A DNA stretch of 64,000 nucleotides from Balneola sp. GTDB taxonomy: Bacteria; Bacteroidota; Rhodothermia; Balneolales; Balneolaceae. The notes under the pieces were generated by a model. The model saw nothing but the letters and a program-made list of their open reading frames with translations. It had not been told where the DNA came from and made no database searches. The stretch spans positions 64,837 to 128,836 of the forward strand of contig PBJO01000003.1 of NCBI GenBank assembly GCA_002720745.1, given 5' to 3'. The position numbers and the translations under genes are program-made. Of the stretch, positions 1 through 3,672 are shown piece by piece. Within the stretch, counting starts at the first letter, position 1; the number at the start of each line of letters is the position of its first letter.

Positions 1-199
1 AGTTTAATTAACTTAATATTTAATCTTTTTAATCTATATTATAAATTATATCTAATCCAACTATTTAGTATATATTGAATTCAATCACTTAATCTACCTA
101 CACTACATTATATTACATTAAACCAGAAGTAATAAATATATTAAGCAACATCATAACTACTTTAAATAATAAATACTTCTTCGCATCTACTTTCTTAAA
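1..199. other. No gene recognised at the left edge
   Basis: The first 199 bases contain many stops in all frames and no ORF longer than about 15 codons that looks meaningful. Composition is the same G-poor, AT-rich type as the ORF-bearing part to the right. I see no RNA gene, repeat array or hairpin here. Confidence 0.5.
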
Positions 200-262
200 T
201 TACCTAAAATAGTTTTTTATAATTCTTATCCAATCCTTACATCTTTCTATATATCTTTCCAT
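200..262 (-). CDS. Tiny basic ORF (20 aa)
   Basis: A 20-residue ORF, MERYIERCKDWIRIIKNYFR, rich in Arg/Lys and aromatic residues. It starts two bases after the stop of the 27-aa ORF upstream, and a purine-rich GGAGAGGAA stretch precedes its ATG, so it could be translationally coupled. Small basic proteins occur in ssDNA phages as DNA-condensing or lysis peptides, but there is no sequence signature here to claim either. It may be a chance ORF. Confidence 0.25.
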   Translation of the reverse strand: MERYIERCKDWIRIIKNYFR

Positions 263-264
263 AA

Positions 265-348
265 TTATAATTCCTCTCCTACTTCTTCAAGCAATTCATC
301 TAAATCAAGATCATAATCCATTATATCAATATCTATAATATCAATCAT
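265..348 (-). CDS. Tiny acidic ORF (27 aa)
   Basis: A 27-residue ORF that begins MIDIIDIDIMDYDLDLDELL and ends EEVGEEL; almost half of its residues are Asp or Glu. It lies between the 163-aa ORF and the 20-aa ORF in the same orientation and composition. Its periodic Ile/Asp/Leu pattern suggests an acidic helix or strand rather than noise, but no family is recognised. No clear ribosome binding site precedes it. Confidence 0.28.
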   Translation of the reverse strand: MIDIIDIDIMDYDLDLDELLEEVGEEL

Positions 349-432
349 TGCATTAACCTATTAATTAATATTAAAACATAATAATCCAAATAAATCATTT
401 ATATATTTACTTTCTCCTCATTTCTATTCCGC

Positions 433-924
433 TTAATTACTTCTCTTTTTGTCACCCTTATCAAGTGTCAATATAGTTTCTCCACTATCAACACTTATTA
501 TATCTTTACCTTTCACATAAACACACTCTTTACTCCCGCCACTTTTAAAATCTTTTTCATCACATTCATTAATTCCAGCTCTTAATCTACCTATATAATC
601 TTTTACTTCATTTTTATTATCATTTACATAAATCATTTTGTCAACTTCTTGTACACCAAAATAATATTTTCTATTTCTTTCACCTCTAACATAAAACTCT
701 CTTACTCTATTCATAGTTCCTGGCTCGATTATAACTTCTTTACTCCAGCATTTCCCTTTATTACTGCTATCTAAACCTTCTCTGTCTAATATTCCAAATT
801 GTTTATCACAAAACTCAATTAATTTTTCTTTAATACTCTTTACAACCCTCTCCTTCTTTTCTCTCACTTTTATAATCTTCTCTTCTCTTACATCAAAACC
901 TAAGCTTGCTAAAAAATCACTCAT
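433..924 (-). CDS. Unrecognised 163-aa protein of the G-poor segment
   Basis: A charged protein of 163 residues, rich in Lys, Glu and Asp, with no signal peptide or membrane segment. Residues about 15-45 form a Lys/Glu-rich amphipathic helix (EEKIIKVREKKERVVKSIKE), followed by a mixed region with aromatic strands (EFYVRGERNRKYYFGVQEV) and a hydrophilic, Gly/Asp-rich tail. I do not recognise the family. It sits 29 bases downstream of the Rep-like ORF on the same strand, so the two probably share a transcript. Codon use is extremely A/T-ended like its neighbours. A structural, scaffolding or DNA-binding role in a small phage or plasmid is possible but not shown by any motif. Confidence 0.55.
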   Translation of the reverse strand: MSDFLASLGFDVREEKIIKVREKKERVVKSIKEKLIEFCDKQFGILDREGLDSSNKGKCWSKEVIIEPGTMNRVREFYVRGERNRKYYFGVQEVDKMIYVNDNKNEVKDYIGRLRAGINECDEKDFKSGGSKECVYVKGKDIISVDSGETILTLDKGDKKRSN

Positions 925-953
925 TTAAAGAACCTTTATTTAAAATTTTTACT

Positions 954-1376
954 TTAATTTAGATTACTAATTATATCATAATCAAACAAGTCATTTTTAT
1001 AATTGTCTTCAATTATATATAAATTATAATCCCCTTTATCTCTATCAAATTTATCTAACCAATAAATACCACCACCACTACTCCAATATTTATTAAATAA
1101 GTTATCCACTTTACTATTACTCAATTCACATATCATTAAACCATGTACATATATCTTACCATTCTTTCCATACTCCATTACATATATTCCATCAATTAAA
1201 CACTCTTTTTTTAATTTTCTCCATAATTTCTTCACTAAATTCCTACAATTGTTAAAATTTCTTACATCATATTTAAAACTTAAACCAAAACAATAATCCC
1301 AATCTCTACCATACATATTAATACTATAATTACTTACTAATTCTTCTAATCCATCTTTAAATCGGCTTATATCCAT
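954..1376 (-). CDS. Rolling-circle replication initiator-like protein, degenerate HUH motif
   Basis: A 140-residue protein whose layout matches small HUH-type replication initiators. CFGLSF (29-34) stands where motif I (FLTLTF-like) is expected. A basic helix with VKKLWRKLKKE follows at 48-58. Then comes VMEYGKNGKIYVHGLMI (66-82), the position of the HUH metal-binding motif, with E68 upstream. A Trp-Gly-rich turn (W98, GGG 101-103) leads to DYNLYIIEDNYKN (116-128), the position of the catalytic-tyrosine motif. The first His of HUH is replaced: the sequence reads Y76-V77-H78. The protein is shorter than most Reps. AAGGAG lies 9 bases before the ATG and supports this start. Tandem repeats and a hairpin sit just upstream. 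The family call is inference from pattern only; an inactive relic is equally possible. Confidence 0.42.
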   Translation of the reverse strand: MDISRFKDGLEELVSNYSINMYGRDWDYCFGLSFKYDVRNFNNCRNLVKKLWRKLKKECLIDGIYVMEYGKNGKIYVHGLMICELSNSKVDNLFNKYWSSGGGIYWLDKFDRDKGDYNLYIIEDNYKNDLFDYDIISNLN

Positions 1377-1411
1377 TTCTATTAACTCCTTATATCTATA
1401 CTATGCAATCT

Positions 1412-1439
1412 TATAATTCAAATAATATAATTCAAATAA
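1412..1439. repeat. Two abutting perfect 14-bp direct repeats (iteron-like)
   Basis: TATAATTCAAATAA occurs at 1412-1425 and again, without gap or mismatch, at 1426-1439. The pair lies 36-63 bases upstream of the start of the Rep-like gene. In rolling-circle replicons the initiator binds tandem iterons next to the nick-site hairpin, so placement and size fit. In DNA this AT-rich a short tandem duplication could also arise by slippage. Confidence 0.6.
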
Positions 1440-1450
1440 ATAACCTTATC

Positions 1451-1474
1451 TAGTACTCATACATTTTAGTACTA
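1451..1474. other. Perfect 7-bp inverted repeat, candidate nick-site hairpin
   Basis: TAGTACT (1451-1457) and AGTACTA (1468-1474) are perfect reverse complements around a 10-base loop, CATACATTTT. The hairpin is 11 bases beyond the tandem repeats. Rolling-circle origins typically pair iterons with a hairpin carrying the nick site in its loop. No known nonanucleotide (such as the geminivirus TAATATTAC) is present, so the nick site is not identified. Confidence 0.45.
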
Positions 1475-1702
1475 TTTCAATCTCTCTCTCTTACTATTAA
1501 TTTAATTAGATATAGTTTTATTAAATTATTTAATCATATATACCAATCCCATTTCCATTATAATCCTACATATACCTAATAAAAACAGTTCTTTTCTTGT
1601 GCATTTCCATCACTTATTATTACTTCAAAATTACAACCCAATAAATAACACTTTGTTAGTATTCACTGCAACTTTGCACATTCTCAACTATCATTACAGT
1701 CT
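1475..1702. other. Intergenic stretch between G-poor segment and thiN
   Basis: Nothing coding is seen in these 228 bases. The first part keeps the G-poor composition; the last 60-100 bases become more mixed. A CAACTTTG at about 1668-1675 is one base off the Bacteroidetes -7 consensus TAnnTTTG, but no well-spaced -33 TTG accompanies it, so I do not call a promoter. Confidence 0.4.
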
Positions 1703-2323
1703 ATGCATGCATTAATTATTGCAGGAGGAATCCCTCCAAAGAAAAATCTATTAGAAAAAGAAATGGCTTTAGCCCAACTATACATAGGGGCGGATAGCGG
1801 TGGGTATGTCTATTTAGGATATGGACACAAACCTGATATTGTAGTCGGAGATCTTGATAGTTTTGTATATACACGCCACAAGGGTATAAAAGTATTGGAA
1901 TTACCCGATCAAGAAACCAATGATCTAGAAAAAAGTCTAGAGTATGCGCTCGAAAAAGGCGCTAAATCAGTGTGTATTCTTGGCGCTATAGGCAAACGTT
2001 TCGATCATAGCCTTAAAAACCTTTCTGTACTTCTTCGGTACTTAGACCGATTTGAGGACATACGATTTAAAGACAATTATGGAGAACTTTTCTTAGTACG
2101 CTCGCCATACACACCCAAGCAAGCTGTAGGTACTGGGATTTCTTTTTTCCCCGTTCTTGAACCTGTAAAAAATTTCTGTTCCAAAGGAGTAAAATATCCT
2201 TTAAATGATTCAGTACTTGCCATGGGAGTTCAGGACGGCACATCTAACGAAATCACATCCAAGAATGCTATCATTCATTTTGACGGTATCCTTGGGGTTT
2301 ATATTATTAAATCTATTCAATAA
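1703..2323 (+). CDS. thiN: Thiamine pyrophosphokinase
   Basis: Transfers pyrophosphate from ATP to thiamine, giving thiamine diphosphate in the cytoplasm. The family's hallmarks are all present: GADSG (29-33), VVGDLDS (47-53), DQETNDLEK (69-77) and GAIGKRFDH (about 94-102), which form the ATP and metal site, and a C-terminal DGTSNEI loop of the thiamine-binding domain. At 206 residues it is the usual length. It stands first in a + strand run, 14 bases ahead of the M24 aminopeptidase gene. It is also the first gene right of the compositionally odd left segment, and its own composition is normal for the window. Confidence 0.9.
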   Translation: MHALIIAGGIPPKKNLLEKEMALAQLYIGADSGGYVYLGYGHKPDIVVGDLDSFVYTRHKGIKVLELPDQETNDLEKSLEYALEKGAKSVCILGAIGKRFDHSLKNLSVLLRYLDRFEDIRFKDNYGELFLVRSPYTPKQAVGTGISFFPVLEPVKNFCSKGVKYPLNDSVLAMGVQDGTSNEITSKNAIIHFDGILGVYIIKSIQ

Positions 2324-2337
2324 AATATATCGTAGAT

Positions 2338-3672
2338 ATGCATCATAAACATCGCATCAAACTGTATTCTCTTTTTTCTCAAACTCAAGAATCAATCATC
2401 TTTTTAGAAGGTGCCAAGATTATGAACCGCTACCAAACCGATTATGAGTTTGCTTTTCGTCAGGAGTCTAATTTTTGGTATGTAAGCGGGGTTAACGAAC
2501 CAGATTGTGCTGCGATTCTAGACATTGATTCTAAGGAATTTCACTTATTTGTGCCAAAAAGAGACATGCAATATGCCGTTTGGTATGGCTATGTTAAAAG
2601 TCTGGATCAATACCGATCCAAATACTCCCCAGACCATGTGCATTATATAGATGAGCTACAAGAGGTAGTGAAAAAGTTAAACCCCTCCATAATTTTTTGC
2701 TTAAACGAATCTTCGCAGGAAAGGATTCATTCGCATAAACTCGAGGTAACAACTGATTCAGAGGCCTTGATTGAGGCTTTAAACGATGCCAGAGTCATCA
2801 AAACCGAAGAGGAACTGGAGTGCTTACGCAAAGCTAGCCAAGTAAACGATGAGGCTTATAAGCGAGTCATTGAATCATGGAAACCAGGCATGTATGAGTA
2901 TCAAGCAAAAGCGATCTTCACCAAAGTACAAATGTCTAATGGCCTTCAACAAGATGCATATAATGGGATTTATGCATCAGGACCCAATTCCGCCATTTTA
3001 CACTATGTTTCAAATAATCGACAAACCCAAGATGGAGAGCTTTTTCTAATTGATGCAGGTTTTGAATATGAGGGCTATGCGGCAGATTTTAGTCGTACAT
3101 TCCCCGTGAATGGACGATTCTCGGCTAATCAAGCAGAAGTATATGAGGTGGTTTTAACTGCTCAAAAACAAGTTATTGAAGCCATCAAACCTGGAGTACG
3201 AATGGAGGATTTACACATGATGTCTGCAAGCACCATGATGGAAGGTTTGCTCGACATGGGAATCGTTAAGGGTTCGCTGAATTCTGTCATGAAAGCTAAT
3301 ATTTTTGCCCTCTTTTTCCCACACGGATTAGGTCATTTTTTAGGTTTAGATACTCATGATGTTGGCGGATATCCAAAAGGGGTGGAACGGATTGATCGGC
3401 CTGGTATTTTTTACTTGCGAGCTCGGCGAGAATTAGAAGCCGGTATGGTAGTTACCATTGAACCGGGCATCTATTTTGTACCCTCGGTGTTAGAACCTGC
3501 GCTAAAGGATCCTTCTAAACAGATGTTTTTAAATGCTGAAAAGCTTTACGAATTCATGGACTTTGGAGGAATCCGTATAGAGGATGATATTGTAGTCACA
3601 GAAAACGGCTATGAAAATCTGACCCACATTGTCAAAGAACGAGACGAAATTGAACGACTTATGAATAACTAG
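2338..3672 (+). CDS. pepP: Xaa-Pro aminopeptidase, M24B family
   Basis: Cytoplasmic metallopeptidase that removes N-terminal residues preceding proline. The N-terminal aminopeptidase-P domain (about 1-165) contains SNFWYVSGV. The C-terminal pita-bread domain has the five dinuclear-metal ligands: the two Asp of LIDAGFEYEGYAADFSRT (about 239 and 250), His in FPHGLGHFLGLDTHDVGG (about 332), Glu in TIEPGIYF (about 375) and Glu in GIRIEDDIVV (about 415). The 444-residue length fits PepP. It follows thiN by 14 bases and probably shares its transcript. A well-formed promoter for dnaX overlaps its 3' end. Confidence 0.9.
   Translation: MHHKHRIKLYSLFSQTQESIIFLEGAKIMNRYQTDYEFAFRQESNFWYVSGVNEPDCAAILDIDSKEFHLFVPKRDMQYAVWYGYVKSLDQYRSKYSPDHVHYIDELQEVVKKLNPSIIFCLNESSQERIHSHKLEVTTDSEALIEALNDARVIKTEEELECLRKASQVNDEAYKRVIESWKPGMYEYQAKAIFTKVQMSNGLQQDAYNGIYASGPNSAILHYVSNNRQTQDGELFLIDAGFEYEGYAADFSRTFPVNGRFSANQAEVYEVVLTAQKQVIEAIKPGVRMEDLHMMSASTMMEGLLDMGIVKGSLNSVMKANIFALFFPHGLGHFLGLDTHDVGGYPKGVERIDRPGIFYLRARRELEAGMVVTIEPGIYFVPSVLEPALKDPSKQMFLNAEKLYEFMDFGGIRIEDDIVVTENGYENLTHIVKERDEIERLMNN

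Follow-up and report, generated by a model that had tools for sequence, protein, structure and literature searches.

The window, the whole 64,000-nucleotide stretch of Balneola sp. DNA analyzed here (G000:C6:64837-128836, from genome G000), begins inside an AT-rich insertion that ends just ahead of thiN. The right 1,655 bp of this 2,280-bp insert (insert A; G000:C6:64212-66491) occupy positions 1 to 1655, as delimited by composition and empty sister sites, and the remainder lies left of the window. A flanking direct repeat, TTAGTAT, follows at 1656 to 1662; its left copy (L003:18205-18211) is outside the window, a single copy is present at empty sites, and the 2,280 bp between the two copies have sharp junctions when aligned with four of five empty sites. 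Those sites were found in five sister genomes (G001, G002, G003, G004, and G005), where the start of a gene joining DHH, DHHA1, trypsin-like, and PDZ domains (the domain scan covered two sister genomes), past which the left border of the insert lies, directly adjoins thiN. Occupancy was uncallable in G008, whose contig begins 27 bases before thiN, and in G007, where thiN was not found. One further genome, G006, carries the right part of insert A, with an N gap between the Rep-like gene and thiN and the contig end within the insert.

Four frames, all on the minus strand, are conserved between G000 and G006. The ORF at 954 to 1376 has an ATG start and encodes a 140-aa Rep-like protein, whereas reading the plus strand from 954 meets many stops. 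Its partner, ORF2 (433 to 924; ORF call and G006 alignment), encodes 163 aa of no known family and is followed by two tiny conserved peptides: ORF3 (265 to 348; translation and alignment with L008), a strongly acidic peptide of 27 aa (MIDIIDIDIMDYDLDLDELLEEVGEEL), and ORF4 (200 to 262; by eye from the L008 alignment and the sequence), a peptide of 20 aa (MERYIERCKDWIRIIKNYFR). ORF2 was seen solely beside the Rep gene in G000 and G006 (2 of 92 genomes of the bacterial family; 85% identity) and had no match in viral contigs or phages; its structure model, built from two sequences, was uninformative (pLDDT 40.5).

No recognized integrase or capsid gene was found in insert A by family scans of Rep and ORF2. 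A Phage_F search of nine genomes of the genus was likewise empty, yet its control also matched nowhere. The DNA of window positions 1 to 1640 had no second copy in the genome, merely short chance-like matches; Rfam gave no match in window positions 1 to 2400, and no tRNA was found at L003:15000-20000. A dif-like attachment site at the insert ends was considered but found no support: against a 28-base dif consensus, the best match at both empty sites was 18 of 28, equaled or bettered by 23 and 26 of 300 shuffles and thus no better than chance. The left part of the insert holds a hairpin of A+T only (L003:18308-18344; 12-bp arms with 13 nt between them), a possible candidate for the origin.

Motifs and predicted fold of the Rep-like protein

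The first-pass annotation had described the gene as Rep-like with a Tyr in place of the first His of the HUH motif, and every residue that it quoted (FGLSF, Glu, YVH, W, GGG, and DYNLYIIED) is present in the minus-strand ORF. In order, the protein carries F30-G-L-S-F34, a basic helix (41-58), E68, G73-K-I-Y76-V-H78-G-L-M81, W98, G101-G-G103, and D116-Y-N-L-Y120-I-I-E-D124. The position of HUH motif II is taken by Y76-V-H78, and Y120 is the candidate nucleophile. Motif I, UUTU-like and on a hydrophobic strand, is present as F30-G-L-S-F34 on the first strand, aligned to the canonical F-T-G-T-F with Ser for Thr. Passages of PMC6668415 treat both His residues of HUH as the superfamily signature and as metal ligands; it is because this defining motif II fails that the lineage is set apart from canonical HUH enzymes.

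Among Pfam matches up to E 1 there was a single one, to PF23343 (REP_ORF2-G2P; residues 43-101, E 0.0049), and at 17.6 bits it lies below the cut-off of 27.8; Y1_Tnp, the IS200/IS605 or REP-associated transposase family, was absent at the same limit. NCBIfam returned unrelated enzymes alone, far under their cut-offs. A sequence search of PDB chains matched no Rep, either for the window family or for the canonical set described below, and direct searches with the window Rep matched nothing in phages, plasmids, or viral contigs (the last searched with the single sequence and with the alignment).

An AlphaFold2 model built from three sequences (pLDDT 64, pTM 0.62) places a strand at 27-34, a helix at 41-58, strands at 61-69 and 75-83, a helix at 87-101, and a strand at 103-109. 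This beta-alpha-beta-beta-alpha-beta core has the HUH order, with YVH on the predicted third strand; residues 115-130, Y120 included, are modeled at pLDDT under 50. Foldseek against viral models gave 56 matches at E<=0.001, and among the 50 listed 11 were named, 10 of them as replication proteins (NS1 being that of parvoviruses) and one as "uncharacterized". Against the PDB, no match reached E<=0.001; ranks 1, 2, 4, and 6 were Rep domains of circoviruses and nanoviruses (6h8o, 7kij, and 7kii), among other ferredoxin-like proteins. The best Z score belonged to the SIRV1 ORF119 Rep (2x3g; 9.8 over 110 residues), with ribosomal protein S6 at 9.6 in effect a tie and other ferredoxin-like folds, ACT-like domains too, tying as well. 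The modeled fold is consistent with a Rep and is no proof of one.

The viral proteins brought up by these searches resemble the window Rep in different respects. Those of nanoviruses and circoviruses are among the top PDB fold matches but belong to eukaryotic viruses; nanovirus-type Reps can carry a changed second His (HUQ), whereas the window lineage is changed at the first. The SIRV1 protein shares the minimal single-domain architecture, but it is 10% identical and comes from an archaeal linear virus; PMC4187194 describes it as a Rep whose catalytic residue is a Tyr. The Rep-domain fold is also that of the replication initiators of inoviruses and of microviruses (VP4), but there was no direct match in the phage collection, the window protein is shorter (140 aa versus 252 and 258 aa in two inovirus records), and insert A has no recognized structural gene.

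Relatives with and without the first histidine

Proteins with Y-x-H at motif II were found at four places, the window among them, which are spread over two insertion sites and three genomes of a single genus. The A members are those of the window and of G006 (Balneolaceae bacterium UBA2956), and the B members are those of contig C24 of G000 and of G008 (uncultured Balneola sp. AG-896-M03, like UBA2956 named in a public collection and of the same genus; the "AG-896" style of name presumably denotes single-cell genomes). These three genomes are the only ones in which the family was detected, whether among the 92 genomes of the bacterial family or the 244 of the class. The A and B proteins are paralogues with 31% identity, and the PF23343 score was 19.2 bits for the G006 protein, with no match at E<=0.1 for either B member. 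Motif II is Y-V-H in the window and G006 and Y-L-H in both B members, so that none has the HUH consensus. All four keep Y76, H78, Y120, and an acid ahead of motif II (E68 in the window, D in the B members). Motif III, Y-x-x-K, has its Tyr in all four and its Lys in three, the window having E123; its alignment to the canonical set is a reading by eye that differs by one column from that of MAFFT, and as the B members have two adjacent Tyr there, their Y120 equivalent hinges on that one-column choice. The first-pass annotation had asked whether relatives keep Y76 and Y117/Y120; Y76 and Y120 are kept, but Y117 is not, being His in G006. The family is not a product of chance, given four places in three genomes, invariant Y76, H78, and Y120, and selection on the genes (below); these four sequences amount to two by descent.

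The B insertion sits in the spacer between the divergent genes moxR and uppP in G000 and G008. Four sister genomes (G001, G002, G003, and G005) have this spacer without an insert; no uppP turned up in G004 or G006, and in G007 the gene is fragmented. Since insertions A and B each have empty sister sites, the family entered at least twice. Beyond the Rep frame, insert B holds little that is recognizable. Three candidate features were examined there and set aside: a perfect 10-bp inverted repeat upstream of Rep B (L004:4584-4647) as an origin, its second arm being changed in G008; a possible ORF2 remnant in G008, a frame of 52 aa lying downstream of Rep B, which proved not to be one; and an ACTTT-like repeat, which is too diverged to be called a target duplication.

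Among relatives whose HxH is intact, the nearest that were found belong to other Balneolaceae. When 394 genomes of the phylum were searched with a five-row profile, one of its rows being the G018 Rep, 6 gave a match: G000, G018, G048 (at two places), G070, G013 (a broken copy), and, weakly, G208 (E 4.1e-5; motif HFH). The Reps of G018, G048, and G070 read KVHLHGLL at motif II and YCCKYVTK at motif III; by PF23343 score, the proteins of G018 and G048 exceed the cut-off and the one of G070 falls short of it (22.4 bits). In hhalign, the window family and this canonical HLHG set aligned over 95 columns (E 3.4e-6, probability 88%, with few sequences on each side), and the single-sequence match between the window Rep and the G018 Rep had an E value of 4.7e-4. 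The predicted fold, the subthreshold PF23343 match, and this profile-profile likeness together support the description of the window protein as Rep-like with Tyr for the first His of HUH. Across 25 distinct PF23343 places (14 in one scan and 11 more in the other; motifs read by eye or pattern rather than from a profile alignment), 22 have His first, three of these (L068, L071, and L073) in broken frames, 2 have Tyr (the window and G006), and 1 (L086), cut by its contig, is unreadable.

The PF23343-type mini-Reps carried by integrative elements of Balneolaceae (G018, G048 twice, and G070) share with the window Rep motif I as W-D-Y-x-F, the Glu, the spacing of motif II, the Trp, the motif III Tyr, and a length of 130-140 aa. 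They differ in having H-L-H-G, Y-x-x-K-Y-x-x-K, an ordinary base composition, and an integrase alongside, whereas the window lineage has Y-x-H and, in insert A, a 2.28-kb element without an integrase. The canonical relative had no match in viral contigs or plasmids. The G018 Rep matched five records of microvirus VP4 or inovirus replication initiators (E 1e-4 to 8e-3), two of which were checked as Inoviridae.

Four Balneolaceae places share an element front around the canonical HUH Rep, behind which the genes vary. This front comprises a tyrosine-recombinase-like protein of 412-432 aa, a 249-323-aa protein, a protein of about 91-95 aa (HTH_17 in L010), the 130-aa HUH Rep, and two small zinc-type frames (subthreshold matches in L010). 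The four are L010:4734-8695, L047:4061-7977, L048:4028-7759, and L049:3937-7756; a fifth locus, L050:6901-7453, has a broken Rep. In four of these five loci PADLOC-named defense genes lie behind the front: a reverse transcriptase in L010 (RT; best RT_VI), HEC-01A/B in L047, a type III methyltransferase in L049, and Dsr1 in L050. That scan covered these four, L048 being left out.

Selection, cytosine depletion, and a possible route to tyrosine

Rep A, ORF2, and Rep B are maintained by purifying selection. Between G000 and G006, Rep A has a dN of 0.111 and a dS of 0.416 (NG86), with a dN/dS of 0.27 by NG86, 0.39 by YN00, and 0.16 by ML, and ORF2 has a dN of 0.071 and a dS of 0.602, for a ratio of about 0.12. 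In the flanking genes thiN, pepP, and dnaX the ratios are 0.13, 0.16, and 0.26, with dS from 0.34 to 0.35; the dS of the insert is above that of its flanks, and the insert therefore changes somewhat faster at silent sites. The Rep B pair has a dN of 0.039, a dS of 0.300, and a ratio of 0.13 (NG86), beside 0.05 for moxR and 0.14 for uppP. Neutral evolution was simulated conditional on the count of differences, with a spectrum from the A-insert alignment (coding and noncoding) that was used for B too. As few amino acid changes as observed arose in 1 of 2,000 runs for Rep A (where the count was equaled) and in none of 2,000 for ORF2 or for Rep B, and at least one stop was gained in 1,974, 1,959, and 1,727 runs, respectively, whereas the observed genes have none.

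The plus-strand GC skew of insert A, -0.6 to -0.88, corresponds to a sense (minus) strand of 42% A, 35% T, 19.8% G, and 3.3% C; in 121 slices of equal length taken elsewhere in the window, the share of C or G never falls below 15.2%. C occurs 8 times in the 420 nt of the window Rep, where only three codons start with it; one of these is the sole His codon of the gene, that of H78 (CAT). At the first-His position the codon is TAT in A, TAC in B, and CAT in the three canonical genes compared. As TAT is one C-to-T step from the canonical CAT, a simple mutational route (CAY to TAY) leads to the Tyr. At third codon positions the skew of A is strong (0.47 to 0.88) and that of B is weak (0.07 to 0.29), with positions 1 and 2 of B still skewed; the weaker third-position skew is as expected for a longer chromosomal residence of B. 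Two facts speak against an account by loss of C. The excess on the sense strand of insert A is of A too, not of T alone. Two inoviruses whose Rep is related to that of G018 have 21 and 23% C and hence no shortage of it, so a Rep of that type does not entail the skew.

A proposed retained function and competing readings

We favor, at a probability of a little under 60%, the reading that the gene encodes the HUH-fold Rep of an integrated mini-replicon, which lost its first His under strand-specific C depletion and has retained a function. The small Rep would be the replication initiator of an element with a past or present single-stranded phase, and long phases of this kind may have caused the loss of C on one strand. 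Alongside this loss, one C-to-T change would have turned the first His (CAY) into Tyr (TAY), either once before the A-B split or twice in parallel, while selection presumably held the second His, the motif III Y120, and the acid ahead of motif II (E68; D in B). The origin is most likely still recognized. Nicking may persist as well, with E68, H78, and perhaps the hydroxyl of Y76 placed around a metal ion and Y120 as the nucleophile; altered metal chemistry in a divergent lineage, one of the two options in the first-pass annotation, is thus possible. The kept residues (E68 or D, Y76, H78, and Y120) would fit a Rep that cleaves its origin by means of a metal site that is weaker or of another kind and would also fit one that only binds, and we place more weight on Rep function having been kept in this broad sense. 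The fully specified version, an active "YUH" Rep nickase that came about through C loss on a mini-replicon which moved at least two times in this form and perhaps still cycles through ssDNA, we hold to be doubtful.

Parts of this picture have precedents. Passages of PMC6668415 cover HUH Reps, HUH elements integrated in bacteria (a Bacteroidetes group among them), and HUH domains without any of the motifs, and microvirus-like proviruses of Bacteroidetes (BMV) are the subject of PMC3091885. From what the latter source describes, BMV resemble insert A in their ssDNA-type Rep, intergenic integration, and short flanking direct repeats but differ in a size of about 6 kb, capsid genes, and dif-like ends, whereas insert A measures 2.28 kb, with no recognized capsid gene and no dif match beyond chance. 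Narrow queries of the open-access literature found no report of a Rep family with Tyr for the first His (YUH).

The competing reading with the best prospects, unlikely in our judgment but with an appreciable chance, is that of an HUH fold that no longer nicks and is retained to bind DNA, at an element site or at divergent host promoters, as a regulator, in copy control, or in interference with related replicons. In its favor, the metal motif is broken in all four members while the gene is nonetheless under selection, the canonical second Tyr of motif III is missing (in the window the Lys too), both insertions lie between divergent host genes, and inactivated HUH domains serve in origin binding in polyoma- and papillomaviruses, according to a passage of PMC6668415. 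Set against this are Y120, H78, and the acid ahead of motif II, which are invariant at 31% identity and not obviously needed for pure binding, and the CAY codon of H78, held despite C depletion.

That the protein is no Rep at all, but an unrelated ferredoxin-like (RRM-like) protein with a chance likeness of motifs, appears improbable. The tie in Z of ribosomal protein S6 and ACT-like domains with the SIRV1 Rep would suit such a protein, as would a PDB that gives neither a fold match at E<=0.001 nor a Rep by sequence and an NCBIfam scan that returns only unrelated enzymes far under cut-off; the motifs, however, come in order at the correct positions of the fold, nearly every named viral model among the matches listed is a Rep, and the family has a profile match to the canonical Balneolaceae Reps, with E 4.7e-4 for the G018 Rep as a single sequence.

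The other option of the first-pass annotation, a decayed Rep left by a dead insertion, has very little to recommend it: motif II and parts of motif III are indeed lost, and insert B offers little besides its Rep frame, but there is no stop or frameshift, the count of amino acid changes is lower than in 1,999 of the 2,000 neutral runs of Rep A and lower than in every run of ORF2 and of Rep B (2,000 each), and the Tyr is common to two separate insertions, so that purifying selection and conservation across both sites speak against it. To an artifact of assembly or binning, with a free phage or plasmid contig misjoined to the chromosome, we give next to no credence, since the ambiguous bases that the left of insert A shares with the neighboring gene, the N gap and contig end in G006, and the G008 contig start 27 bases before thiN are outweighed by the same gene order beside thiN in two genomes, the moxR and uppP flanks of B in two, the sharp junctions against empty sites, and a G000-G006 nucleotide identity of 86-87% in the insert genes versus 87-90% in the flanks.

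A lineage that has lost its first His, while the second, the acid, and the Tyr were kept under selection, offers a natural experiment on the ligands that the site requires. The case also links a change in the active site to base composition: with C at 3% of the strand, His codons come at a cost, and positions that stay CAY accordingly mark selective need. Should strand-specific C loss be the driver, similar "broken" motifs may have been misfiled as dead in other skewed replicons.

Assemblies are uneven around the insert: N are scattered through the left part of insert A in G000 and the adjoining gene (L003:17932-18836), G006 has its N gap and contig end at L008:7194-7507, and the G008 contig starts at L038:1. 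Copies in other forms or a mixture of strains could account for this. The adjoining gene itself is a frame of about 750 aa in which a DHH-DHHA1 phosphoesterase and an HtrA-like (trypsin-PDZ) protease are fused, separated by a stretch that is hydrophobic and lipobox-like; it lies left of the window at L003:15881-18136 and occurs in at least four genomes of the genus (also L029:9172-11436, L030:725-2989, and L032:1014-3278; domains scanned in two).
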